IMG/VR virus record: IMGVR_UViG_3300045945_000202
Location: 1-24,649 of that record
Strand: one strand, 5' to 3'
Origin: a virus
Length of the DNA: 24,649 nucleotides
Each line of letters begins with the position of its first letter. Within the stretch, counting starts at the first letter, position 1. A program made the position numbers and the translations under genes. Shown here piece after piece: positions 3,297 through 22,596 of the stretch. Below the pieces are notes generated by a model that saw only the letters and a program-made list of their open reading frames with translations, was not told where the DNA came from and did no database searches.

Positions 3297-3634
3297 GCGT
3301 GCGCCTGGTCGTCGACAACGCCCGCCCGTGGCTCGCGATCCCGCCGGAGCTCCGGGAGCGGGCGCGCGCGCGGAACGCGGCGATCCACGCTATCACGCGT
3401 CCGAGGATCCTCGCGTTTAAACGGGCGAAGCATGAGGGGGGCGACGGCGTCCGAGGGGTTCACCTTCCGCTCCCCGGGCCGGCCGCTGGGGCTCCGGCCC
3501 CCACACGTTCCGTGGACCGGCCCCGCCGTCCCCCTCATCCGTCGTTCCCGCAGCTGATCGCCGCGCACCCGTACGCGAGCGGCGCGATCGCCACGCTGCT
3601 GTCCTGGGCGCTCGCCGCCCTGGGAGGCGTCTGA
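3293..3634 (+). CDS. Hypothetical protein with C-terminal membrane segment
   Basis: This 113-residue ORF starts at GTG overlapping the previous stop. The N-terminal 50 residues (VRLVVDNARPWLAIPPELRE and following) look like a normal folded domain. The middle (about 50-85) is Pro/Gly/Arg rich. The end (LIAAHPYASGAIATLLSWAL) is a likely membrane segment. A second short frame, 3431-3556, reads MRGATASEGFTFRSPGRPLG and is also plausible. The ORF may therefore be two small genes, or may contain a frameshift near 3425. An AT-rich palindrome CGTTTAAACG sits at that point. Confidence 0.55.
   Translation: MSVRLVVDNARPWLAIPPELRERARARNAAIHAITRPRILAFKRAKHEGGDGVRGVHLPLPGPAAGAPAPTRSVDRPRRPPHPSFPQLIAAHPYASGAIATLLSWALAALGGV
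3412..3424. repeat. CGCGTTTAAACGG copy 1 (palindromic core)
   Basis: This 13-base sequence contains the 10-bp palindrome CGTTTAAACG and recurs exactly at 9735-9747. Six consecutive A/T bases are rare in such GC-rich DNA. It lies inside a weakly supported ORF. Confidence 0.5.
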
Positions 3635-3795
3635 TGCCCACTCCCTGGGAGCTCGGCCTCGTCGTCACCGGCGTGCTCCTGGTGCTCGCACTCGCCGCGC
3701 TCTGGCTGCGCCGCGCCTTCCGCGCAGCTGATGACACGAAGCGCGTCTCCGATCCATGGCTCAAGCGCCAGGCGGAGGAGGAAGCAAAGCAATGA
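3634..3795 (+). CDS. Single-span membrane microprotein
   Basis: This 53-residue protein has its ATG sharing a base with the preceding TGA (TGATG). Residues about 6-25 are hydrophobic (LGLVVTGVLLVLALAALWLR). They are followed by a basic, then acidic, helical tail ending in KRQAEEEAKQ. It is predicted to be an inner-membrane protein with a cytoplasmic tail. Its stop overlaps the next ATG (ATGA). The role is unknown; it could take part in lysis control or superinfection exclusion, but nothing in the sequence decides this. Confidence 0.65.
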   Translation: MPTPWELGLVVTGVLLVLALAALWLRRAFRAADDTKRVSDPWLKRQAEEEAKQ

Positions 3796-7998: not shown

Positions 7999-8924
7999 TG
8001 GCGCGCGGGCACCTGCCGAAGGCGTACCTGCGCATCGACCCCAACCTCGACCAGCACGCGGACGCGGAAGGGATGCTGTTTCTGATCTGCGCTGCAGCGC
8101 GCCAGCCGCGCCGTGGGCGCTTCGAGGACGTGTCGTTGATCGAGCGAGTGCTCGGTAGCCGAAAGCGCGCCCAGGCGTTCCTGACGCCGCGGAGGCCAGG
8201 GAAGGAGCCCGACGTCGTGCAGCTCGAGGACGGGACCTACTACCTCGCCGGATGGGACGAGTGGCAAGAGGGTGACTTCACCGTTTCAGAGCGCGTGCGT
8301 CGGGTGCGCGCGAAGCGTGACGCGGGCGTTTCCGAGCCGTTTCATTCACCGTTACACGAGCCGTTACAAGATGGCTTCTCGACCGTTACTCAGCCCGACT
8401 CCCCTCGCCCTCTTTCCCCCACACCCCCTATTACCCACACCCCTCGGGCGAGAGGCGTTGTGCGTTGTGCGAGAGACGGATCCCCTACCGGGGATCCTGC
8501 GAGCGGCGAGCGTAAGCCTGCTACTGGGCCGTCTGCCGGCGTCACGCCGCCGCTCGCCGCGCCGCCCCAGGGTGAACCACCCCCGACACCGGCGACGCCA
8601 GCGGAGGCTCGCGCTCGGGCGCTGAGCGTTCTGGGCCCACCACGGCAGCTCATCGCGATCGACCACGACCCCGACGACGAGCTCCAGGCCGAGATAGTCC
8701 GCCGCTGCGAGGACCTGGCGCGCCGCATTGCCGCGCGCGACGGCCGGGAACCGGAGCCCGATGAGGCGCTCGAGGTTCTACGAGCCGTCAGCACGACGCC
8801 CGGGGGTCAGTTCCTGGAAAGCCTGCGATTCGCCTCAGCGGAGTGGCTCGCCGTCACGCTGGCATCGTGCGACGCGTTCGAGCGCGACCAGCTCGGTCAG
8901 GAGCCGCGGGGGAGCGCCGCGTGA
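7998..8924 (+). CDS. Replication initiator / helicase-loader-like protein
   Basis: This 308-residue protein starts at ATG sharing a base with the preceding TGA. Its N-terminus (HLPKAYLRIDPNLDQHADAE and the following helices with IERVLGSRKRAQAF) resembles a replisome-organiser-type winged-helix region, and the motif YYLAGWDEWQEGDFTVSERV fits that class. Residues about 113-200 are a Pro/Ser/Thr/Gly-rich linker encoded by a run of CCGTTWC repeats and a long pyrimidine tract. The C-terminal 100 residues are helical and acidic. A DNA-binding N-domain, flexible linker and C-terminal partner domain is the plan of lambda O-like initiators, whose gene also contains the origin. Position between ParB-like and RusA genes supports this. 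No ATPase motif is seen. Confidence 0.65.
   Translation: MARGHLPKAYLRIDPNLDQHADAEGMLFLICAAARQPRRGRFEDVSLIERVLGSRKRAQAFLTPRRPGKEPDVVQLEDGTYYLAGWDEWQEGDFTVSERVRRVRAKRDAGVSEPFHSPLHEPLQDGFSTVTQPDSPRPLSPTPPITHTPRARGVVRCARDGSPTGDPASGERKPATGPSAGVTPPLAAPPQGEPPPTPATPAEARARALSVLGPPRQLIAIDHDPDDELQAEIVRRCEDLARRIAARDGREPEPDEALEVLRAVSTTPGGQFLESLRFASAEWLAVTLASCDAFERDQLGQEPRGSAA
8281..8390 (+). repeat. Iteron-like CCGTTWC repeats inside the initiator gene
   Basis: Copies of CCGTTTCA or CCGTTACA/T lie at 8281-8288, 8337-8344, 8349-8356, 8361-8368 and 8383-8390. The middle three are spaced exactly 12 bases, and the next is 22 bases on. A pyrimidine-rich tract follows (about 8391-8450). The repeats encode the low-complexity peptide EPFHSPLHEPLQDGFSTVTQ. 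The arrangement matches a candidate replication origin embedded in an initiator gene. Confidence 0.5.
8478..8497. repeat. Perfect inverted repeat beside the iterons
   Basis: GGATCCCC-TACC-GGGGATCC is an 8-bp perfect stem with a 4-base loop, about 90 bases after the last iteron-like repeat and within the linker-coding part of the initiator gene. A tandem GCGTTGT pair lies just before it (8455-8468). Confidence 0.6.
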
Positions 8925-9747: not shown

Positions 9748-9968
9748 TGATGGCCCGCCCGGCGCCGGTAGCGGACCCAGGCGAGATCGACGGGGAAGTC
9801 CTCGAGCGCAACGACCGGCACTTCGCATGGCTCGTCGACCGCTGCCGAGGCCTCGCCCGGGCAGCCAGGCGGCGTCGGATGCGGAGAGAAGCGCATGTCG
9901 TCCTGACGTTCGACGAGGCCGGCAGGGTGAACCTTCGTTTCCGTCCTGAGGAGACCCCCGACAGCTGA
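9747..9968 (+). CDS. Small basic hypothetical protein
   Basis: This is a 73-residue protein. Consecutive GTG (9747) and ATG (9750) codons could both initiate, and ATG is preferred. No Shine-Dalgarno sequence precedes it. The centre is strongly basic (CRGLARAARRRRMRREAH), followed by a beta hairpin (VVLTFDEAGRVNLRFRP). The composition suggests a small DNA- or RNA-binding protein or a single-domain regulator. The family is unknown. A weak hairpin follows its stop. Confidence 0.6.
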   Translation: MMARPAPVADPGEIDGEVLERNDRHFAWLVDRCRGLARAARRRRMRREAHVVLTFDEAGRVNLRFRPEETPDS

Positions 9969-9989
9969 AACGACGGGCCCTCCCTTGGC

Positions 9990-10014
9990 GTGCGCTCCAG
10001 GCGCACTTGTAAAA
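9990..10014 (+). terminator. Weak terminator-like hairpin
   Basis: GTGCGC-TCCAG-GCGCAC (9990-10006) is a 6-bp perfect stem followed by TTGTAAAA. It lies 21 bases after the stop at 9968 and before an AT-richer promoter-like stretch. The tail is not a clean U-run. Confidence 0.35.
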
Positions 10015-10033
10015 TCGCGAGTGCGCTCACGAA

Positions 10034-10067
10034 TTGTGAATAAACAGGGAGTGCTATCCCGTATTAT
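10034..10067 (+). promoter_or_regulatory. AT-rich promoter-like region
   Basis: The stretch contains TTGTGA (10034-10039) and TATTAT (10062-10067, 5 of 6 with the -10 consensus). Their 22-base spacing is too long for a normal sigma-70 pair, so only the -10 is credible. It ends 5 bases before the ATG at 10073 and 29 bases before the tRNA-like element at 10097. No ribosome binding site lies between. Confidence 0.35.
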
Positions 10068-10072
10068 CCTGC

Positions 10073-10840
10073 ATGAGCGCGATGGCTGAGAACAGTGGGG
10101 CCGGTCAGGTGGCGGGAACAGGGCTTACACCTGAGTCCCGGGGGTTCGAGTCCCCCCGGCTCCATCCCCTTGCGGACGGCCAGGCTGCCGAGGTCACTCA
10201 CGAGGAGTTCGTGCACGCGGTCCGCGCGGCCGTCGTCGGCCGGGTGGGCAGCGAGTCGGAACGCGCGCGCCTCCTGTCGGCCAAGCTGGTCTACGGCGGC
10301 GGGACCTCGGGGATCCGGGGGCTCTGCTACTTCGGCGCGTGGCAGAACGGCAGCCAGCATGACTTTCTCGAGATCTCAGCGATCGGCGAGGAGAACTTCG
10401 TGCAGCTCGCCGGGACGACGATCCACGAGCTGGCCCATTCGCTCGCCGGCCGCGAGCACGGCCACGGCCCGGTGTGGAAGGCGGCGTGCGCGGTCCTCGG
10501 GCTGCAGATGGCGCAGGCTGCCGGCCAGTCGTACGCGCCCGCGCACTTCGAGCCGTCGGTGTGGGTGGCGATCGAGGCGCTCCCGCACCCGTCCGACGGC
10601 AAGCCGGCTTTCGCGCCCGGCGCCGCGGGCCCGGTGGTGCGGCGGCGGCCGATGCCGTGCCCGCTCGGCGTGGGGACTCGCGGCGGCCGCTCGCGCGGCG
10701 TGGGCTCAGGGTCGCGACTCCGGCTCTGGCTCTGCGGCTGCCCGGAGGGCGCGAAGGGTCGGAAGGTGCGCGTCGCCACCGACGATTGGGACGCGACCTG
10801 CAACCGCTGCAGCAAGAAGTACGCGCGGCAGGATGTCTGA
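10073..10840 (+). CDS. SprT-like zinc metalloprotease
   Basis: This ORF has 255 residues from the first ATG. The metalloprotease signature is THELAHSLAG (HExxH at about 118-122), followed by GHGPVWKAAC, where a further histidine can bind the zinc, as in SprT/Spartan-like proteases. The C-terminus is a zinc ribbon (LWLCGCPEG, then TCNRCSKKY). Spartan relatives cut proteins crosslinked to DNA; the phage substrate is unknown. The start is uncertain. Codons 9-31 are also a tRNA-like element (10097-10164), no Shine-Dalgarno sequence precedes ATG 10073 or 10082, GTG 10109 lies inside the element, and GTG 10211 has GAGGAG only 3 bases upstream. Residues from about 40 look protein-like, which favours a start before 10211. 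A hairpin follows the stop. Confidence 0.8.
   Translation: MSAMAENSGAGQVAGTGLTPESRGFESPRLHPLADGQAAEVTHEEFVHAVRAAVVGRVGSESERARLLSAKLVYGGGTSGIRGLCYFGAWQNGSQHDFLEISAIGEENFVQLAGTTIHELAHSLAGREHGHGPVWKAACAVLGLQMAQAAGQSYAPAHFEPSVWVAIEALPHPSDGKPAFAPGAAGPVVRRRPMPCPLGVGTRGGRSRGVGSGSRLRLWLCGCPEGAKGRKVRVATDDWDATCNRCSKKYARQDV
10097..10164 (+). tRNA. Degenerate tRNA-like element 1
   Basis: The acceptor stem is GGGGCCG (10097-10103) with CGGCTCC (10157-10163), seven pairs including one G-U, plus discriminator A. The T-arm GGGGG-TTCGAGT-CCCCC (10140-10156) is fully canonical. The 36-base core is shorter than in normal tRNAs. There is no D-stem, and the anticodon arm has four pairs (CAGG/CCTG) around GCTTACA. 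That loop would place UUA in the anticodon, complementary to the ochre stop, but base 33 is C rather than U, so the assignment is unsafe. CCA is not encoded. A competing 7-bp repeat TCAGGTG/CACCTGA exists. It could be a decayed tRNA, an attachment-site remnant, or a tRNA mimic in the mRNA. Confidence 0.5.
10114..10128 (+). repeat. 15-bp direct repeat, copy A
   Basis: GGGAACAGGGCTTAC lies in the anticodon region of the first tRNA-like element and recurs exactly at 10879-10893. The two copies bracket the protease gene. Confidence 0.6.
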
Positions 10841-11405: not shown

Positions 11406-11479
11406 CGCGATAGTTGGGCCCGACGTAGCAGAGCCCCCACCCGAGTCGTGGACGGGCCGGGGCTGGCGGGGACCGGACG

Positions 11480-11515
11480 AAGGCCTCGCGTTTCCGAAAG
11501 GAGCGCGAGGCTTTT
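11480..11515 (+). terminator. Intrinsic-terminator-like hairpin overlapping the endolysin start
   Basis: GCCTCGCG (11483-11490) pairs with CGCGAGGC (11504-11511), extendable with G-U/A-U pairs, and is followed by TTTT (11512-11515). The 13-base loop holds GAAAGGAG, a good Shine-Dalgarno sequence. The TTG start of the endolysin (11514-11516) falls in the U-tract. Confidence 0.6.
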
Positions 11516-12110
11516 GTCGTCTCAGGGCCCCAAGCAGAGCACGCTCGACGCCGCCCTGCGCTGGCTGTTCCGCGCCGAGGGCGGCTTCGTCAACAACCCC
11601 AAGGACCCCGGCGGAGCGACGAACCTTGGGATGTCTCTTCGCGCGGTGTCGCGCCTCGACGCCGACGGCCACCTGGCGCCGCACCTCCGCGAGCTGCTCG
11701 ACGTCGACGACGACGGCGACATCGACGTCGAGGACGTGAAGCAGTGGACGCCGGAGATCGCGACCGAGTTCTACCGGCGGTTCTACTGGGACGCCGCGCG
11801 CTGCGACGAGCTCCCGTGGCCCCTCTCGCTGGCTGTCTTCGACTCCTGCGTCCTGGAGGGGAAGGTGGTCGCCGTCCATCACCTGCAGCAGGCGATAGGA
11901 CTGGCCGGGCCACAGCTCGACGGGATCCTCGGCCCGAAGACTCTGCAGACGGCTGCGCTCGTCATGTCGGCCGTGCCCGATCACACGCTTCGAGAGCTGA
12001 TCGTGCTCCGCCTTGAGCGTCTCTCGGGACTGCACAACGCACCGACGTTCTTCCGCGGCTGGGCGGCGCGAATGCTGGACCTGTACGTCGAGGTCCTAAA
12101 GGAGGCGTGA
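11514..12110 (+). CDS. GH108-type endolysin with peptidoglycan-binding C-terminus
   Basis: This is a 198-residue protein. I chose the TTG at 11514. It is the only start near the expected N-terminus, and GAAAGGAG lies 10 bases upstream. The lysozyme-like motif AEGGFVNNPKDPGGATNLGM (about 21-40) matches the GH108 E-G-G-Y pattern, with E22 as the catalytic acid that cleaves the glycan backbone. Residues 63-74 (DVDDDGDIDVED) fit an EF-hand calcium loop exactly. YRRFYWDAARCDELP continues the GH108 core. LQQAIGLAGPQLDGILGPKT (about 145) is a peptidoglycan-binding repeat. There is no signal peptide, so it depends on a holin. It is the first gene of the lysis block and 1 base upstream of the lipoprotein gene. 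Confidence 0.88.
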   Translation: MSSQGPKQSTLDAALRWLFRAEGGFVNNPKDPGGATNLGMSLRAVSRLDADGHLAPHLRELLDVDDDGDIDVEDVKQWTPEIATEFYRRFYWDAARCDELPWPLSLAVFDSCVLEGKVVAVHHLQQAIGLAGPQLDGILGPKTLQTAALVMSAVPDHTLRELIVLRLERLSGLHNAPTFFRGWAARMLDLYVEVLKEA

Positions 12111-14949: not shown

Positions 14950-15432
14950 ATGAGAGGCCGGAAGCCGCGGCCGAACGCGGAGAAACTCGCCAAGGGCGAG
15001 ACGAGGCCTTCGCGCGTCAACTACGAGGAGCCGGAAGTTCCCGCGCCGTCCGCGGGCGCGCTCGAGCCGCCGAAGGACCTCCGGGGCGCCGGCTTCCGTC
15101 TGTGGCGCGATCACGCGAAGACGATGACTGAGTCGGGCCAGCTGCGCGCGACGGACATGCCGGCGTTCCTCGCGCACTGCAAGACAGAGGCTGACATCGA
15201 GGGCTGGGAGAAGGAGCTGAAGCTAAAGGGCCTCGATCGCGCCGACCGCCTCACGATCCAGCGGACGCTCAACCAGCTCCGCAGCCTCTCACTGCGCCAG
15301 GCCGCCGAGCTCGGCATGACGTCGGTGGCGCGCTCGCGGGTGAAGGCGGTCACGAAGCCGCCGGTCGAGAAGCCGAAGCACGAGCGTTTCTTCGGAGGCA
15401 TCCGTGGCGTCATCCCCGGCGGCCGCAAGTAG
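14950..15432 (+). CDS. terS: Terminase small subunit, P27-like
   Basis: This is a 160-residue protein from ATG 14950 (MRGRKPRPNAEKLAKGETRP), the typical basic opening of P27-family small terminases. It continues with a helical DNA-binding/oligomerisation region (AGFRLWRDHAKTMTESGQLR, DMPAFLAHCKTEADIEGWEK) and a C-terminal segment ending IRGVIPGGRK. The length fits the family (about 130-170). It recognises phage DNA and loads the large terminase. It overlaps the TerL start by 29 bases, so translation is coupled. Confidence 0.88.
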   Translation: MRGRKPRPNAEKLAKGETRPSRVNYEEPEVPAPSAGALEPPKDLRGAGFRLWRDHAKTMTESGQLRATDMPAFLAHCKTEADIEGWEKELKLKGLDRADRLTIQRTLNQLRSLSLRQAAELGMTSVARSRVKAVTKPPVEKPKHERFFGGIRGVIPGGRK

Positions 15433-17293
15433 CCGACCCACGGCGCGTCGCCGCCGCGGCCGCGGGAGGCCTGCGCCCTGGTGGGGCGAGGGCCCGCCGC
15501 CGCACGAGCGCTGGCCGGGCGTCACGATCGAGATCCGCGCGGTCTGGTCGAAGAAGCGCGAGCGCTGGGAGAGCCCCGACGGGCGCTACTACTTCGACGA
15601 GGCCGCGGCGGATAAGGCCTGCGACTTCTTCCCGACCTTCCTCAGCCACCATATCGGCGAGCACGCGGGCCAGCCTTTCGAGCTGCTCGACTATCAGCGC
15701 GCGCTGATCATCCGGCCGATCTTCGGGTGGAAACGGGCGACGACGGGGCTCCGCCGCTTCCGGTTCCTGTTCGCGTTCCTGCCGAAGGGGAACGGCAAGA
15801 GCCCGCTCGGCTCCGGGATCGGCCTGTACCTGGCGCTCTGCGACGACGAGCCAGCGGCGGAGGTCTACGCCGTCGCCGGCGACAAGGACCAGGCGAAGGT
15901 GGTCCACGAGACCGCCAAGGTGATGGTCGAGGAGTCGGCAGACCTCCTTGAGCTCTGCCAGGTCCTGCGCGACTCGATCTACTGTCCGAAAGGTCGCCAG
16001 AGCTACAAGGTCCTGTCAGCCGACGCCCCCGGCAAGCACGGGAAGCGGCCGCACGGCGTGATCCTCGACGAGCTCCACAACCAGCCGAACCGCGACCTCT
16101 TCGAGGCACTCCGGAAGTCGCTGCTCAAGCGCCGCCAGCCGCTCTTTGTGATGCTCTCCCACGCCGGCGACGACGACGAGTCGATCTGCTATGAGGAATA
16201 CGAGTACTCGAAGCGCCTGCTCAGCGGGACCGGCAGCGACGAGTCCTACCTCCCGGTGATCTTCGAGGCCGGCCCGAAGGACGACTGGACGAAACGCCGC
16301 AACTGGGAGAAGGCCAACCCCGGGTTTGGCATCACGATCAACCCAGAGATCTTCGAGGCCGAGTGCCGCGCGGCGCAGGAGGAGCCACGGAAGCGGAACG
16401 ACTTCCTCCGCTTCAACCTCAACCGCTGGGTCGGCCAGGCCGTGGCGTGGCTCCCGATCGAGTGGTGGGACGAACGCTGCGCAGCCGAGCTCCAGGATGG
16501 TCATCTGCAGCAGCTGCGCTGCGCCGCCGGCCTCGACATGGCGCAGAAGATCGACTTCGCGTCCTTCGTCATCGACTTCATCGAGTTCCTCGAGCGCGGC
16601 GGTGAAGAGATCGAGGTCGTCACCGGGGAGGAGGGCCAGGCGCGCGAGGTCGTGAGCCTCTCGCTGAACTACCGCATCTACAGCCGGGCCTGGTACTGGC
16701 TGCCCGAGGACACGCTGCGCGAGCGCGAGAAGGAGAGCGGCTTGCCGCTCACGCTGTGGCGCGAGCAGGGCCACCTGGTGGCGACGTCGGGGGGCTCGAT
16801 CGACTACGACCGGGTCTACCGCGACATCACGCAGAAGATCGCCCCGCGCTTCCCGTTGCTGAAGCAAGGGGAGATCGGCTACGACCCCGCGTTCGCTACG
16901 GACATCGCGAACCGGCTACGCGACCGCGGAGGATTCACCACGGTCGAAGTCCTCCAGAACTACAAGCACTTCTCCGAGCCGAGCCAGGTCTTCGAGGCTC
17001 TGGTGAAGAGCGGCCGCTGGCAGCACGACGGGCATCCGATCCTCCGGTGGAACGTCGAGAACGTGGCCGTCAAGCGCGACGACGCCGGGCGGATCCGGCC
17101 CGTGAAGCCGCGGCGGGCGAGCAAGCGGATCGACGGAGTCGTCGCCGCGATCATGGGCCTGAGCCGCCTGATGGTGCAGCCGGAGCGGAAGCGTTCGAGA
17201 TACGAGGACGACGATCCGCGAGTGCTCGACCTCGAGGAACTGCAACGCCGTGAGGAGGAACGGGCTCGCGGCGGCCAGGGAGCTCGGCCGTGA
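15404..17293 (+). CDS. terL: Terminase large subunit
   Basis: This 629-residue protein starts at GTG after GGAGG, inside the end of terS. The packaging ATPase domain has Walker A PKGNGKS at about 127-133 and Walker B VILDELH at about 219-225. The nuclease domain begins near 376 with AGLDMAQKIDF, where D378 is a likely metal ligand. It continues with IGYDPAFATDIANRL and ends with KRIDGVVAAIMGLSRLM, typical of the Terminase_1/HK97-like group. It cuts concatemers and pumps DNA into the prohead through the portal. A basic N-terminal extension of about 35 residues precedes the conserved part. Confidence 0.95.
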   Translation: MASSPAAASSRPTARRRRGRGRPAPWWGEGPPPHERWPGVTIEIRAVWSKKRERWESPDGRYYFDEAAADKACDFFPTFLSHHIGEHAGQPFELLDYQRALIIRPIFGWKRATTGLRRFRFLFAFLPKGNGKSPLGSGIGLYLALCDDEPAAEVYAVAGDKDQAKVVHETAKVMVEESADLLELCQVLRDSIYCPKGRQSYKVLSADAPGKHGKRPHGVILDELHNQPNRDLFEALRKSLLKRRQPLFVMLSHAGDDDESICYEEYEYSKRLLSGTGSDESYLPVIFEAGPKDDWTKRRNWEKANPGFGITINPEIFEAECRAAQEEPRKRNDFLRFNLNRWVGQAVAWLPIEWWDERCAAELQDGHLQQLRCAAGLDMAQKIDFASFVIDFIEFLERGGEEIEVVTGEEGQAREVVSLSLNYRIYSRAWYWLPEDTLREREKESGLPLTLWREQGHLVATSGGSIDYDRVYRDITQKIAPRFPLLKQGEIGYDPAFATDIANRLRDRGGFTTVEVLQNYKHFSEPSQVFEALVKSGRWQHDGHPILRWNVENVAVKRDDAGRIRPVKPRRASKRIDGVVAAIMGLSRLMVQPERKRSRYEDDDPRVLDLEELQRREEERARGGQGARP

Positions 17294-17544
17294 GGCGGCG
17301 ACTCGCCGACGCGTTCGGGCGCCTGGCTGAGCTGGTCGGCGCCGCTGCGCGCCTCGTCGTGACCGCGATCGTCGACCTCGTCGGCCTTGCCGGCTTCGGC
17401 GCGACGGTCGCTGGCGTGCTCGAGCTCTGGGGCCGCGGCTGGGCTTTGCTCGTTGCCGGTGTGCTGTTGCTCGTCGCCTATGCGATGGCGGAGTTCGTGC
17501 TGCCGCTCCGCCTCAGGCGGCGGCCAAAGCGGTCGGAGGGCTGA
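17290..17544 (+). CDS. Small two-span membrane protein
   Basis: This 84-residue protein starts at GTG overlapping the terL stop and ends one base into the portal ATG. Hydrophobic segments are LVVTAIVDLVGLAGFGATVA and GWALLVAGVLLLVAYAMAEF, followed by a basic tail (RLRRRPKRSEG). Small membrane proteins between TerL and portal occur in several phages without known function. Confidence 0.65.
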   Translation: MRRRLADAFGRLAELVGAAARLVVTAIVDLVGLAGFGATVAGVLELWGRGWALLVAGVLLLVAYAMAEFVLPLRLRRRPKRSEG

Positions 17545-19166
17545 TGGGTCTTCTGCTGCGCGCCGCTGATAGCCGGGTCTTCGAAGACCACTGGTGGACG
17601 CCTGGGAACGTGGTCGTGATGCCGGACGGAGGCGCCGGCGCCGCTGGGCCGACGGAACCGCTCAAGGTGTCGACCGTCTGGCGCGCGGTGAACGTCCTCG
17701 CCGCCGGTGTCGCGATGCTGCCCGTGGACGTGTTCAAGCGCCTTGAGCCGACCAAGCCCGGGCGCCCCGCAGGTGCGGAGGTGGCGCGCGAGGAGCCCTG
17801 GCACAACAAGATCCGGCTGGGCCCCAGCCCTTTCCAGAGCAGCTTTACTTGGCGGCACCAGTTGGTCGGCCAGGTGGTCCTCGGCGGCAACTACTACGCG
17901 CAGAAGATCCGCCGCGGGGGCGCGAGCGGCCCGATCGAGTGGCTGTGGCCGCTCGATCCCGCGCGCTGCCGACCGATCGACCTGCGCGGCGACGGGACGA
18001 TTCAGTACGAGTACATCCAGAAGAACGGCATCCCGCGCGCCGACCTGACGCAGCGCGAGATCTTCCACGTCCGCGGCTTCACGCGCGACGGCGTCTTGGG
18101 GATTTCGGTGATCGAGCTCATGCGCGACACGGTCGCGCAATCGCTCGCGGCGAAGCGACAGCGCACGGCGTTCCTCAAGAAGGAGCTGCGCCCGTCGGTC
18201 GTGATCAAGCACCCGCTCGAGATCGGAGACAAGGCCTGGGAGAAGCTGTCGTCGCGTTTCCTGAAGGCCTACGGCGGCCCATCGAATGCGGGCACCGCGA
18301 TGATCCTCGACGAGGGAATGGACATCGCGACTTTCCAGGTCTCGAGCCGCGACGCTCAGTACATCGAGGGCGAGCACTTCAACGTCGAGGAGTTCCTGCG
18401 CTACATCGGCGTGCCGGGCGTGCTCGCGGGCTACCCCGACAAGACCGCGACCTACGCGAGCGCCGAGAGCTTCATGCAGATGTTCGTGAGCCACGGTCTG
18501 ATGCCGGTCACGAAGAACCTTGAGCAGGACTTGACGGGCGCCCTGTACGGACGAGACCAGGACGAGCTCTCCGTGCGCTTCAACCTCGACGCACTTCTGC
18601 GCGCGGATTCGCAGGCGCGCGGCGAGTTCTACCGCGTGCTCGTCGAGCTCGGGATCCTGACGCGCAACGAGGTGCGCGAGCTCGAGAACCGCAACCCGCT
18701 CGACGGCCTCGACGAACCCCTGACGCCCCTGAACATGAGCGCCGGCGACGGGGAGCCCACGCCCAAGAAGGGCGAAGCCCGGCCGCCTGCCGGCGATGGA
18801 CCACCGTCGCGTCGACCGTCCGAGCCGGCACCCGATGAGGAGGACCAGGCCCGCGCGCGTGCGATCCTGCGGCGGGTCGCCGCCCGGGTGCTGCGGAAGG
18901 AGATCTTCGCCTTCGCCGGCGCGCCAGGGAAGAAAGGCGCCGCCGAGCGGTTCGCCGGCGACGCCGAGGGCTGGCGCGCCGAAGTCTCCAAGTTCTACGA
19001 GCGGCACGTCGAACTGCTCGGCGAGGCTTTGATGATCGAGCCGGCCGCAGCCGCGGCGTACTGCGCTGACCATCGCCGGCAGCTCCTCGAGGCCGGCCTG
19101 GCGGCGGTGCAGCTGTGGGGCGAGGAGGAAGTCGATCGACTGCTCGGCCTGGCGCTGGGCCGATAG
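17544..19166 (+). CDS. Portal protein, HK97 family
   Basis: This 540-residue protein starts at ATG sharing a base with the previous stop. Portal hallmarks include KVSTVWRAVNVLAAGVAMLP (about 33-52), VDVFKRL, a central WRHQLVGQVVLGGNYYAQK, and the clip/stem region EEFLRYIGVPGVLAGYPD and ESFMQMFVSHGLMPVTKNLE. It forms the dodecameric DNA gate at one capsid vertex. Residues about 430-540 are an extension after the core: an acidic Pro-rich linker, then helices (RVAARVLRKEIFAFAGAPGK, EGWRAEVSKFYERHVELLGE). Such tails are seen in some portals of this type. Packaging context is conserved on both sides. Confidence 0.93.
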   Translation: MGLLLRAADSRVFEDHWWTPGNVVVMPDGGAGAAGPTEPLKVSTVWRAVNVLAAGVAMLPVDVFKRLEPTKPGRPAGAEVAREEPWHNKIRLGPSPFQSSFTWRHQLVGQVVLGGNYYAQKIRRGGASGPIEWLWPLDPARCRPIDLRGDGTIQYEYIQKNGIPRADLTQREIFHVRGFTRDGVLGISVIELMRDTVAQSLAAKRQRTAFLKKELRPSVVIKHPLEIGDKAWEKLSSRFLKAYGGPSNAGTAMILDEGMDIATFQVSSRDAQYIEGEHFNVEEFLRYIGVPGVLAGYPDKTATYASAESFMQMFVSHGLMPVTKNLEQDLTGALYGRDQDELSVRFNLDALLRADSQARGEFYRVLVELGILTRNEVRELENRNPLDGLDEPLTPLNMSAGDGEPTPKKGEARPPAGDGPPSRRPSEPAPDEEDQARARAILRRVAARVLRKEIFAFAGAPGKKGAAERFAGDAEGWRAEVSKFYERHVELLGEALMIEPAAAAAYCADHRRQLLEAGLAAVQLWGEEEVDRLLGLALGR

Positions 19167-19174
19167 GGAGGGGC

Positions 19175-20086
19175 ATGATGTTTCTTCACCACGTTGTGGG
19201 GCGGCCGTGGGCGGTCACGCAGGAGATCGCCGACCAGGTCCAGCAGATCCTCGAGGCCGAGGGCTATCGTGGGCTGCGCCAGCTGGCGGAGCTGCACCGC
19301 GACGCACGTGCGCACGCCGAGGCCCGCGGCGGCCAGCGAGCCGGCGGACGGTCGACCGGCAGCGTCGCCATCATCCCGGTCTTCGGATTCCTGACGCACC
19401 GCGGCGACGTCGTCAACAGCATGGAGACGACGTCGACCGCTGCGCTCGCCGAGGCCGCGCGCACGGCGGCGGCGGATCCGGCAGTCGACTCGATCCTGCT
19501 TGAACTCGACAGCCCGGGCGGCGAGGTGTACGGCGTGACGGAGGCGGCCACGGCCCTCCGCCAGGCTCGCGCCTCGAAGCCCCTGATCGCGGCCGTCAAC
19601 ACGCACGCGGGCAGTGCGGCCTACTGGCTCGCGGCGCAGGCTGACGAGATCGTGGTGACGCCCTCGGGCGAGGTCGGCTCGATCGGCGTGTTTGGCGCAC
19701 ACGAAGACAAGTCAGAGGCCCTGAAGGCGCAAGGACGGAAGCTCACGATCGTCTCGGCTGGGAAGTACAAGGTCGAGCGCAGCGCCCACGCGCCGTTGAG
19801 CGACGAGGCTCTCGGCGCCATGCAGGCTGACGTCGACCGCTACTACGGCATGTTCGTCTCGGACGTCGCGAAGGGCCGTAAGGTGCCTGTCGACTCCGTG
19901 CGCTCCGGATTCGGCGAAGGCCGGATGGTCGGGGCGAAGGAATCGGTCGCGGTGGGCATGGCGACTGCCGTGGGGACCCTCGACGACGCGGTCCGCCGCG
20001 CGGCGTCGCTGGGCGCCGAGAGGCGGCGTTCGATGTCTGCTCTCGCGGCTGCACAGGTGTCGCGCGCGACCCTCGACGTGGGGTAG
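19175..20086 (+). CDS. S49-family prohead maturation protease
   Basis: This is 303 residues from ATG 19175 (a second ATG follows), with GGGAGGGG just upstream. The S49/ClpP-like core has SVAIIPVFGFLTHRG (about 63-77), LLELDSPGGEVYGV (oxyanion region, about 108-121), NTHAGSAAYWLA with the likely nucleophile S147, and SAGKYKVERSAHAP, where K197 or K199 is the candidate general base. It removes the scaffolding-like N-terminus of the capsid protein during head maturation. Its position between portal and capsid genes is diagnostic. The C-terminal 25 residues are variable. Confidence 0.92.
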   Translation: MMFLHHVVGRPWAVTQEIADQVQQILEAEGYRGLRQLAELHRDARAHAEARGGQRAGGRSTGSVAIIPVFGFLTHRGDVVNSMETTSTAALAEAARTAAADPAVDSILLELDSPGGEVYGVTEAATALRQARASKPLIAAVNTHAGSAAYWLAAQADEIVVTPSGEVGSIGVFGAHEDKSEALKAQGRKLTIVSAGKYKVERSAHAPLSDEALGAMQADVDRYYGMFVSDVAKGRKVPVDSVRSGFGEGRMVGAKESVAVGMATAVGTLDDAVRRAASLGAERRRSMSALAAAQVSRATLDVG

Positions 20087-20101
20087 CGTCGAAGAAAGTC
20101 C

Positions 20102-20294
20102 TTGACAGGGCCCAGGGTGGCTCTGGCAGGATCTTGACCGTTGACGTACCCGGTCAGCTCATAGAGCCGGCCGGGCCCGCTGGGAAAACCCGGGTCTCCT
20201 TCGAGCGCCCGTGACTCAGTGGCACCGATAGCGCGTTCGCTTTTCGGTGCCCGGAGCACGGGCTTTCGTGCTTTCAGGCACCAGGAGGACCGGG
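20102..20294 (+). promoter_or_regulatory. Structured leader of the capsid gene (promoter plus switch-like RNA)
   Basis: Three TTGAC motifs lie at 20102 (TTGACA), 20134 and 20141, but no good -10 follows at standard spacing. Hairpins are CCAGGG/CTCTGG (20111-20125), TGACCG/CGGTCA (20135-20156), GCTC/GAGC (20157-20167) and a long stem GGCACCGA/TCGGTGCC (20221-20228 with 20244-20251) with inner AGCG/CGCT. Next is AGCACG/CGTGCT (20255-20272). GGTGCC at 20246-20251 can instead pair with GGCACC at 20277-20282, directly before the AGGAGG at 20283-20288. The alternatives are mutually exclusive. No known RNA family is recognised. This is the longest non-coding stretch in the window. Confidence 0.5.
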
Positions 20295-21767
20295 ATGATG
20301 AGACTCGCGGCGCTGCGACAACAGCGCGAAACCCTCAAGGCCGAGTTCCGCGCCTGGCTCGACGGCGTGATCGCCACGGCGCACAAGGAAGGCCGCGGCC
20401 TCAACGCCGAAGAGGAGGCCAAGCAAAAGGAGTATCAGAACAAGCTCGCCAACGTCGACGGCCTGATCAGGGCCGAGGAAGCGCTGGCGACGCTCACGCC
20501 CGACAACACGTTGACCCCCGCGCTCGACGCCGGCCCGATCGGCGGCGGCTCCGCAGCGCCGGCGCCGCCCGCTGCCGCGCTCGAGCAGCTCGAGCCGGGC
20601 CTGGCAGTCGCCGGCCTCGGCCACCGCGCGGCGATCGAGGCCGCGACCCGCGTTCTCGTGGGCCGGTCCTCGCGCGGGATCCATGTGGCGCCCCCGAACG
20701 TCGCGCAGGATCCGATGCGCGGATTCCGCAACGTTGGCGAGTTCGCGATCGCGGTCCGCAACGCGGGCATGCGCCCGATGGCGGCCGATCGCCGACTGCT
20801 CGACGGCGGTCTGCTCGGCGCGCTGGGCGCCGGGGCGCTGCAGGCAGCGGCATCCGCGGGGACGTATCACCAGGAGTCCAACACCCCCGAGGGCGCGATG
20901 GTCCCGCCGGCGATGAGCCAGGCGATCTGGCAGATCGTCTTCGCCGACCCGCTCCTCGACTTGCTCACGGTCGAGCCGACCGAGAGCAACGCCGTCGACC
21001 TGCTGAAGGACGAGACGACTCCCTGGGGCGCCGCCGGCGTGCAGGCGTCCTGGCGCGCCGAGGGCGTGCAGATGACGCCGTCGAAGCTCGACACCAAGAC
21101 GGTGCAGTGCCGCGTCCAGGAGCTCTACGCGTTCGTCCTGGCGACGGGCGAGCTGCTCGACGACGCGCCGCGCCTGAACGACCGCCTGGCCGTGAAGGCG
21201 CCGGCGGCGATTCGGTGGAAGCTCGTCGAGTCGTTCATGTTCGGCACGGGCGCCGGCCAGCCGCTCGGCTGGGCGCACGTGAACTATGCGGGCCGGCTGC
21301 TCATCACCCGCACGACCGCGACGCAGGTCAAGCCCGACGACTTCGTGAACATGTTCGCGCGGCTGCTCGTGAGCGACGGCCCGGACCGTTCCTTCTGGGT
21401 CGTGAACCGCGACACGCTGCCGGACATCATCCTCAAGTCGATCGTCGGCAACATCCCGGTCTGGATGCCGCCCTCCGGCTTGGCCGGCGCGCCGCAGGGC
21501 ACGATCCTCGGCCGCCCGCTCTTCTACAGCGAGCACTGCCAGACGAAGGGCACGGCCGGCGACGTCCAGTTCGTGAACCCCGACGGCTACTACGCCCTGC
21601 AGCGTGGGCCGGCGAAGTTCGACGTCTCGATCCACCTGTTCTTCGACCAGAACATCTCCGCGTTCCGGTGGATGTTCCGGTTCGGCGGCCAGCCGCTGCT
21701 CTCCGCCGCCGTGTCCCCCGCGAAGGGCTCGAACACCAAGAGCCACTTCGTGATCCTGAACACGTAA
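20295..21767 (+). CDS. Major capsid protein, HK97 fold
   Basis: This is 490 residues from ATG 20295, six bases after AGGAGG. Residues about 5-65 are a coiled-coil delta-like domain (LRQQRETLKAEFRAWLDGVI, EEEAKQKEYQNKLANVDGLI) that acts as internal scaffold. An Ala/Pro linker (about 75-100) is the likely protease site. The capsid core begins near 190 (TYHQESNTPEGAMVPPAMSQ) and has the typical motifs FVLATGELLDDAPRLNDRLA, ESFMFGTGAGQPLG and HLFFDQNISAFRWMFRFGGQ. It builds the icosahedral shell. The stop is TAA, unlike most genes here, which end in TGA or TAG. The structured leader upstream suggests regulated high expression. Confidence 0.93.
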   Translation: MMRLAALRQQRETLKAEFRAWLDGVIATAHKEGRGLNAEEEAKQKEYQNKLANVDGLIRAEEALATLTPDNTLTPALDAGPIGGGSAAPAPPAAALEQLEPGLAVAGLGHRAAIEAATRVLVGRSSRGIHVAPPNVAQDPMRGFRNVGEFAIAVRNAGMRPMAADRRLLDGGLLGALGAGALQAAASAGTYHQESNTPEGAMVPPAMSQAIWQIVFADPLLDLLTVEPTESNAVDLLKDETTPWGAAGVQASWRAEGVQMTPSKLDTKTVQCRVQELYAFVLATGELLDDAPRLNDRLAVKAPAAIRWKLVESFMFGTGAGQPLGWAHVNYAGRLLITRTTATQVKPDDFVNMFARLLVSDGPDRSFWVVNRDTLPDIILKSIVGNIPVWMPPSGLAGAPQGTILGRPLFYSEHCQTKGTAGDVQFVNPDGYYALQRGPAKFDVSIHLFFDQNISAFRWMFRFGGQPLLSAAVSPAKGSNTKSHFVILNT

Positions 21768-22263: not shown

Positions 22264-22300
22264 CCCGGGGTCGGCGTTTCCGGCCCCGGGCCTTCACTTT
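22264..22300 (+). terminator. Strong hairpin after the capsid module
   Basis: CCCGGGGTCGG (22264-22274) pairs with CCGGCCCCGGG (22280-22290) over 11 bp (one T-G) with a CGTTT loop, followed by CCTTCACTTT. It lies 20 bases after the stop at 22244. The U-tract is interrupted, so read-through into the connector genes is likely. This would step down expression after the capsid genes. Confidence 0.6.
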
Positions 22301-22320: not shown

Positions 22321-22596
22321 ATGCTCGTTCGCGCAGTGAAGCAAGTCGAGTTCCAGTACGGCCAGCGGCAGCGCCGCCTGGAAGTCGGCGAGACGATCGA
22401 TGCCGGCGCGATCCACCCGCGCGAGCTGAAGGCGTACCTCGACGCGGGCACCCTCGTCGAGGACGAGCCTGGCGCAGGACAGGCGCCGGTCGTGGACGAA
22501 GGCGGCGAGGAGACCGGCGAGAAGGGCAAGACGGGCAAGGAGCGGGCCGGCGGCGCCGCGGCCAAGGGTCGCGCCAAGGGAGCGGCCGCGAAGTAG
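22321..22596 (+). CDS. Small hypothetical head-region protein
   Basis: This is a 91-residue protein. The first 50 residues form a small beta/alpha domain (VEFQYGQRQRRLEVGETIDA, GAIHPRELKAYLDAGTLVE). The C-terminal 40 residues are a low-complexity tail rich in Glu/Gly, then Lys/Ala (GEKGKTGKERAGGAAAKGRA). Such short proteins between capsid and connector genes are common and uncharacterised. Its ribosome binding site lies in a hairpin. Confidence 0.65.
   Translation: MLVRAVKQVEFQYGQRQRRLEVGETIDAGAIHPRELKAYLDAGTLVEDEPGAGQAPVVDEGGEETGEKGKTGKERAGGAAAKGRAKGAAAK

Follow-up and report, generated by a model that had tools for sequence, protein, structure and literature searches.

A structured leader upstream of a phage major capsid protein gene and its relationship to a candidate family of leader pseudoknots

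Results

The stretch of DNA analysed here, referred to below as the window, is the whole of a 24,649-nt IMG/VR virus record (24.6 kb) whose genes include a packaging and head module of the HK97 tailed-phage type (Table 1). Between the end of the head protease gene (20086) and the ATG of the major capsid protein (MCP) gene (20295) lies a gap of 208 nt (20087-20294), and it is the RNA leader specified by this gap that concerns us.

Table 1. Genes and leader features of the window (SD, Shine-Dalgarno sequence; MFE, minimum free energy fold)
Feature	Position	Strand	Basis or remark
Small terminase			window packaging/head module
Large terminase	15404-17293		
Portal	17544-19166		
S49-type head protease	19115-20086		
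Promoter-like site, TTGACA (20102-20107)-N19-CAGGAT (20127-20132)	20102-20132	+	sequence
Small hairpin GCTC-ATA-GAGC	20157-20167	+	CTC-NNNN-GAG variant
Anti-SD strand CCCGGGTCTCCT	20189-20200	+	pairs with AGGAGGACCGGG (20283-20294), 11/12, one G-A mismatch; MFE
CTCC-NNN-GAG motif CTCCTTCGAG	20196-20205	+	local CUC-CUUC-GAG hairpin possible
S1 5' arm GCCCGTG-a-CTC (7 bp, 1-nt bulge, 3 bp)	20207-20217	+	predicted fold
Inner hairpin 5' arm GGCACCGA	20221-20228	+	predicted fold; contains first GGCACC
Inner hairpin 3' arm TCGGTGCC	20244-20251	+	its GGTGCC (20246-20251) doubles as candidate S2
S1 3' arm GAG-CACGGGC	20254-20263	+	predicted fold
L3 linker TTTCGTGCTTTCA	20264-20276	+	TTTCGYG..TTTC string shared with relatives
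Candidate pseudoknot 3' strand S2' GGCACC	20277-20282	+	directly 5' of SD; position homologous to covarying canonical S2'
SD AGGAGG	20283-20288	+	6 nt 5' of MCP ATG
MCP, HK97-type	20295-21767	+	PHROG 10 major head protein, 1.9e-33
Head-tail genes			window, same head module

A preliminary description of this locus had proposed that a structured leader precedes the MCP gene, and this is borne out. The leader fold (209 nt) has a z-score of -4.13 against dinucleotide shuffles, none of 200 shuffles being as stable; its last 116 nt alone give -4.31, and when a 160-nt frame is slid along the + strand, the leader ranks first by structure among 613 positions (z -4.17). The predicted ground state (MFE) combines the helix S1, an inner hairpin enclosed by it (GGCACCGA with TCGGTGCC) and a long-range helix of CCCGGGTCTCCT with AGGAGGACCGGG over the SD, and we regard the nested structure of S1 plus inner hairpin as solid. 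Other + strand stretches with fold z-scores below -3 are found at 9961-10120, 11441-11600, 8401-8560 and 2041-2200, and a strong terminator-like hairpin (11 bp, 10 GC) is located at 22264-22290, upstream of the gene at 22321.

The promoter-like site near the start of the gap has a long N19 spacer and was missed by a strict sigma-70 scan. Its TTGACA is at -193 relative to the MCP gene, and in sister leaders (see below) the same hexamer occurs at -198 to -238, for example as TTGACA-N19-TAGAAT at -206 (L013), TTGACA-N18-CAGAAT at -198 (L016) and TTGACA-N17-CACAAT at -206 (L018). Such TTGACA sites are 8-fold denser in MCP leaders than elsewhere (0.197/kb vs 0.024/kb). Transcription would presumably start near 20139, so that the transcript would cover every leader element. 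A start downstream of 20250, which the preliminary description had named as the circumstance that would speak against it, is not suggested by the sequence, since this probable promoter lies 5' of all of the elements.

In the predicted ensemble the core of the SD has a probability of being unpaired near 0, and equal burial is seen in 15% of leaders with shuffled upstream sequence. The strand responsible overlaps a recurrent motif. CTCC-NNN-GAG caps small hairpins whose lower stems vary, and as CTCCNNNGAG (CUCC-NNN-GAG) it is 21-fold enriched in MCP leaders, with 1.05/kb vs 0.05/kb elsewhere. It lies at -99 in the window and at -93 to -105 in L009, L013, L016, L177 and L189, and it occurs in betaproteobacterial relatives too. 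The CUCCU of the window copy doubles as anti-SD, while its GAG has two possible uses, closing the local hairpin or lengthening S1 by pairing with UUUC. When the CUC-CUUC-GAG hairpin is forced in the model, at a cost of 6.7 kcal/mol, the probability that the SD is unpaired rises from near 0 to 0.2-0.9. Judging by these modelled folds, it is the local hairpin and the anti-SD helix that, of all alternatives in the window, most clearly resemble the two states of a switch, ahead of the three hexamers discussed next. Covariation at the additional anti-SD pair, which joins the nucleotide 3' of CTCC to the one 5' of GGAG, is weak (p 0.04), and several Chloroflexota-type relatives retain the CTCC hairpin despite a non-matching SD (GAGG).

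It was with three hexamers that the preliminary description had been most concerned, the middle one being thought able to pair with either flank. All three are present where they had been placed (GGCACC at 20221-20226, GGTGCC at 20246-20251 and GGCACC at 20277-20282), and the last of them directly abuts the AGGAGG instead of ending one base before it, as had been stated. An exact tripartite set of 6-mers with the same spacing and distance to the start codon arose in 14 of 2000 shuffles (p 0.007), which is unusual, but not overwhelmingly so because any pattern could have been picked out. Pairing of GGTGCC with the downstream GGCACC would create the second helix (S2) of an H-type pseudoknot with S1, having an L2 of 2 nt and an L3 of 13 nt. 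Absent from the preliminary description are the promoter-like site, the CTCCTTCGAG motif, the 12-nt complement of the SD region (20189-20200 with 20283-20294) and the stem S1 around the inner hairpin.

To place this arrangement among its relatives, 179 MCP loci were drawn from prokaryotic genomes as well as viral contigs and reduced to 137 non-redundant leaders; the MCPs nearest to that of the window are about 41-57% identical to it. Many of the relatives carry compact, here called canonical, H-type pseudoknots, an example of which reads CCTGTCAC-GC-[GCCGGGC]-GTGGCGGG-N14-[GCCCGGC]-AGAAAGGA...ATG. A search with fixed geometry (S1 and S2 of at least 5 bp, L1 of at most 6, L2 of at most 2 and L3 of 8-25 nt, with the end 8-32 nt before the start) detected such a pseudoknot at p<=0.01 against 100 dinucleotide shuffles in 51 of the 137 MCP leaders (43 of them at 0/100), compared with 20 of 504 starts of non-MCP genes at these loci. 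With everything up to the end of S1 fixed and shuffling restricted to the sequence beyond it, there were still 26/137 MCP leaders against 6/504 controls (odds ratio 19, p 1e-13), and the second helix therefore has a signal of its own. A named phage with a canonical MCP-leader pseudoknot is the Bradyrhizobium phage ppBdUSDA122-1 (OP596612.1; L008, 3614-3716), which would make a convenient model for experiments.

Many of the best control matches fall before the gene just 3' of the MCP gene, which is often preceded by strong hairpins or a pseudoknot-like element (L065, about 3533-3643; L085, upstream of 3527; L078, upstream of 3629). This element could be a second copy or, alternatively, the terminator of the MCP gene.

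The helices of the canonical leaders are built from many different sequences: among 50 leaders, S1 comes in 37 versions and S2 in 32. Because S2 sequences are alike, a loop-swap test against foreign downstream strands was powerless, and the automatic choice of S1 also swallowed S2. Covariation across both pairings was the check that had been proposed at the outset. Strong covariation is found in the canonical relatives, where a MAFFT alignment of 26 leaders scored 0.373 against 0.190 (sd 0.018) for column shuffles, none of 500 reaching it; a control with slid partners gave at most 0.157, and 10 of the 15 pairs change on both sides. In this subset of 26 the covariation is mostly in S1, with S2 contributing mainly at its ends. 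For S2 of the window itself the statistical support is modest, as described below.

In a tree of the MCPs, canonical leaders cluster in a single clade, where 45 of the 58 members score positive; its hosts, where known, are Pseudomonadota (mostly Alphaproteobacteria), Verrucomicrobiota, Planctomycetota and Chloroflexota; both phages and prophages are represented. The window type is nearly confined to a sister clade (8 of 23), in which the window is placed together with L009, L011, L013, L016, L018, L177 and L189. The leaders of these eight are longer and their S1 encloses an inner hairpin. The S1 plan of 7 bp, a bulge and 3/4 bp is common to the window, L009, L013 and L016; the TTTCGYG..TTTC linker follows S1 in the window, L009 and L177 and, more loosely, in L013; and the leader elements are in register in the window, L009, L013, L016, L177 and L189. 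As a whole the window-type leaders are too divergent for a reliable MAFFT alignment, while six trimmed ones align partly.

The window shares the canonical geometry of S1, L2 and L3: an S1 of 7+3 bp with a bulge surrounds the S2 strand, and L3 is within 8-25 nt. Its S2' ends 12 nt before the ATG, again between the protease and MCP genes, whereas the distance is 13-32 nt (mostly 13-28 nt) in canonical leaders. Where it departs from them is in L1, which is short (0-6 nt) and without a competing hairpin in the canonical type but about 28-32 nt in the window, where it holds the inner hairpin. Moreover, the window goes undetected at E<=1 by a covariance model built from canonical leaders, a model that picks up the L009 and L016 leaders at no better than E 0.2-0.3. 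It is because of the long, hairpin-bearing L1 and this lack of a covariance-model match that we treat the window as a sister form and not as a plain member. A scan of the genome family with the same model admitted, under strict filters, few candidates and is informative for its own seed only, and the sole relevant match of the DNA pattern CTTTCRYGCTTTCNGSSSCC in viral contigs was the contig of L009 itself. As far as sequence comparison can tell, then, the window leader is a member or a sister of a widely conserved, uncatalogued family of MCP-leader pseudoknots.

How well the pseudoknot is supported in the window type itself depends on what is shuffled. The extended pseudoknot was matched by 6 of 300 shuffles for the window, 7/300 for L013, 2/300 for L016, 0/300 for both L011 and L018, and 0/100 for both L177 and L189, but these low counts owe much to S1. 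With S1 given, and only the downstream bases shuffled, S2 of the window was equalled in 230 of 2000 cases (conditional p about 0.12); the counts were 24/2000 for L177, 66/2000 for L011 and 171/2000 for L018, no signal was seen in L009, L013, L016 and L189, and the eight window-type leaders combined give a Fisher p of 0.017. An arrangement similar to the tripartite set of the window is also present in L018, L177 and L011. L013 and its sister L016 share the inner hairpin, yet there is a good downstream S2 partner in L013 and hardly one in L016. In all eight window-type leaders the 3' arm of the inner hairpin overlaps the S2 strand, which is not independent proof of switching because the requirement for a short L2 partly builds the overlap in.

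The modelled energies favour the inner hairpin, whose 8 bp are far more stable than the alternative 6-bp pairing. Freeing the S2 strands would cost 22.6 kcal/mol, of which the S2 stack would repay 14.3, so the modelled pseudoknot state is at least about 8 kcal/mol less stable than the inner-hairpin state, and in the modelled fold freeing the S2 strands alone leaves the SD unexposed. The idea of a middle element that pairs with either flank is only modestly upheld: the second pairing does fall at the S2 site of the family, but the inner hairpin is far stabler and the downstream partner is inconsistently kept. By homology with the canonical leaders, the GGTGCC-GGCACC pseudoknot is nevertheless likely to exist in the window.

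Discussion

The reading that we favour, and hold to be reasonably probable, is that the window leader acts in cis as an RNA element of the MCP message, setting MCP translation (or the survival of the message) apart from that of the portal and protease. The analysis establishes the strong structure, the covarying pseudoknot of the family, the promoter-like site and the enrichment of the motif; that control would be translational, and the direction and effector of the switch outlined here, we infer. Most likely the leader would move between a ground state with the SD covered and a state with the SD exposed. In the canonical relatives a compact H-type pseudoknot would have its S2 loop strand paired immediately 5' of the SD; the window would be an elaborated sister form of it under a promoter of its own. 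In the ground state S1 and the inner hairpin would be formed and the GAG of CTCCTTCGAG would join S1; the CCCGGGTCTCCT strand, being freed, could then mask the SD and start region and keep translation low. Formation of the CUC-CUUC-GAG hairpin, or of the GGTGCC-GGCACC pseudoknot at the expense of the inner hairpin, or perhaps of both, would expose the SD. Candidates for the factor that tips the balance are the MCP or another phage protein, the ribosome, and co-transcriptional timing. Autogenous control by the MCP would be an appealing possibility, given that the leader of T4 gene 32 operates in this manner with a pseudoknot (PMC3014915). A bolder version, which at present we think rather doubtful, would have the new RNA family, common to a large set of tailed phages and prophages, couple MCP translation to virion assembly, autogenously through the MCP or a partner, the window being a switching version with an anti-SD/anti-anti-SD module.

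Other explanations must be weighed against this. The structure could be constitutive, insulating the ribosome site of the MCP gene or aiding initiation, with the three-part set a chance by-product of a GC-rich hairpin. A p of 0.007 is, after all, what a freely chosen pattern attained, S2 is weak in the window, and the S2 partner of L013 is not kept in L016; against such an account, the S2' of the window occupies the well-supported canonical S2' position, S2 has a combined p of 0.017 over eight relatives, and a similar arrangement is present in L018, L177 and L011. We judge it unlikely, if still credible. Much the same can be said, with a little more scepticism, of a processing or stability element, in which the structure would keep RNases off the MCP message, or off the 3' end of the message preceding it, and yield high levels of MCP with no switching at all. 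The structure does sit exactly at the junction of low-copy (portal, protease) and high-copy (MCP) genes, the canonical pseudoknots occupy gaps of about 85-105 nt within polycistronic units, for the most part with no promoter match, and the gene after the MCP gene also has strong hairpins more often. On the other hand, shielding does not need the narrow distance between S2' and the start codon, and the window type possesses the anti-SD complement and the CTCC motif.

The preliminary description had also entertained an attenuator or a riboswitch. Transcription attenuation, in which alternative hairpins would govern termination before the MCP gene, could draw on their mutual exclusivity and on the betaproteobacterial relatives, which have a terminator-like hairpin and U-run before the SD. 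We disfavour it as very improbable for the window, where no U-tract terminator is predicted in 20087-20294, nor is there one in the canonical leaders inspected. The betaproteobacterial prophage leaders in question (L139-L165, e.g. L144 and L163) have a CTCCGTTGAG hairpin and a GACCCGTTGGTC hairpin followed by the terminator-like hairpin, with its U-run 15-20 nt before the MCP SD, and these leaders, unlike that of the window, could be attenuators. A metabolite riboswitch is scarcely to be expected. Some riboswitches do use H-type pseudoknots beside the SD, an architecture like that seen here, but the Rfam search that had been suggested for known classes gave no match above the gathering cut-off in Rfam 15 for the window or 20 relatives, a permissive search yielding only noise. 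Furthermore, the helices of the canonical leaders vary freely and no strongly conserved unpaired core of the kind that a ligand pocket has was seen in them.

If the favoured reading of a cis-acting leader is correct, it bears on a problem of dosage. From adjacent genes, tailed phages produce capsid proteins by the hundred but only a dozen portals, a disparity often attributed to how strong the promoter or SD is. With a covarying pseudoknot fixed at the MCP start codon in phages of four bacterial phyla, RNA-level control of capsid dosage would become directly testable; it would also give Rfam a new family and provide an MCP-gene marker for metagenomic phages.

Several known systems invite comparison. 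The SAM-II and preQ1 riboswitches are compact H-type pseudoknots with their 3' strand at the SD; the MCP leaders differ from them in lacking an Rfam match and a conserved ligand-binding core, and in the gene that they precede. The coat-protein operators of RNA coliphages such as MS2 consist of a conserved hairpin tip on a variable stem adjoining the start of a phage gene. The CTC-CNNN-GAG motif likewise looks like a conserved tip on a variable stem, but its sequence is different and the phage here is a tailed dsDNA one. The MCP-leader pseudoknot family itself is absent from Rfam 15 and from the open papers searched, an earlier description being possible, and the word 'capsid' does not appear in PMC2864571 or PMC8040213. 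The E. coli rpsO (S15) mRNA also has a pseudoknot within a translational operator (PMC3014915), that of a host ribosomal protein and of unrelated sequence. Closest in kind is the gene 32 leader of T4, T2 and RB69 (PMC3014915), an H-type pseudoknot with coaxial helices before a phage gene, through which the gene's own product exerts translational control and which, according to a 2010 review, is possibly the sole viral case in translational autoregulation (PMC3014915). The gene 32 pseudoknot sits 67 nt 5' of the start codon, and the tract on which it nucleates gp32 is rich in A+U (PMC3014915), whereas the candidate pseudoknot described here abuts the SD, is GC-rich and precedes an MCP gene. A pseudoknot leader that controls a phage gene is, as T4 gene 32 demonstrates, a known kind of element.
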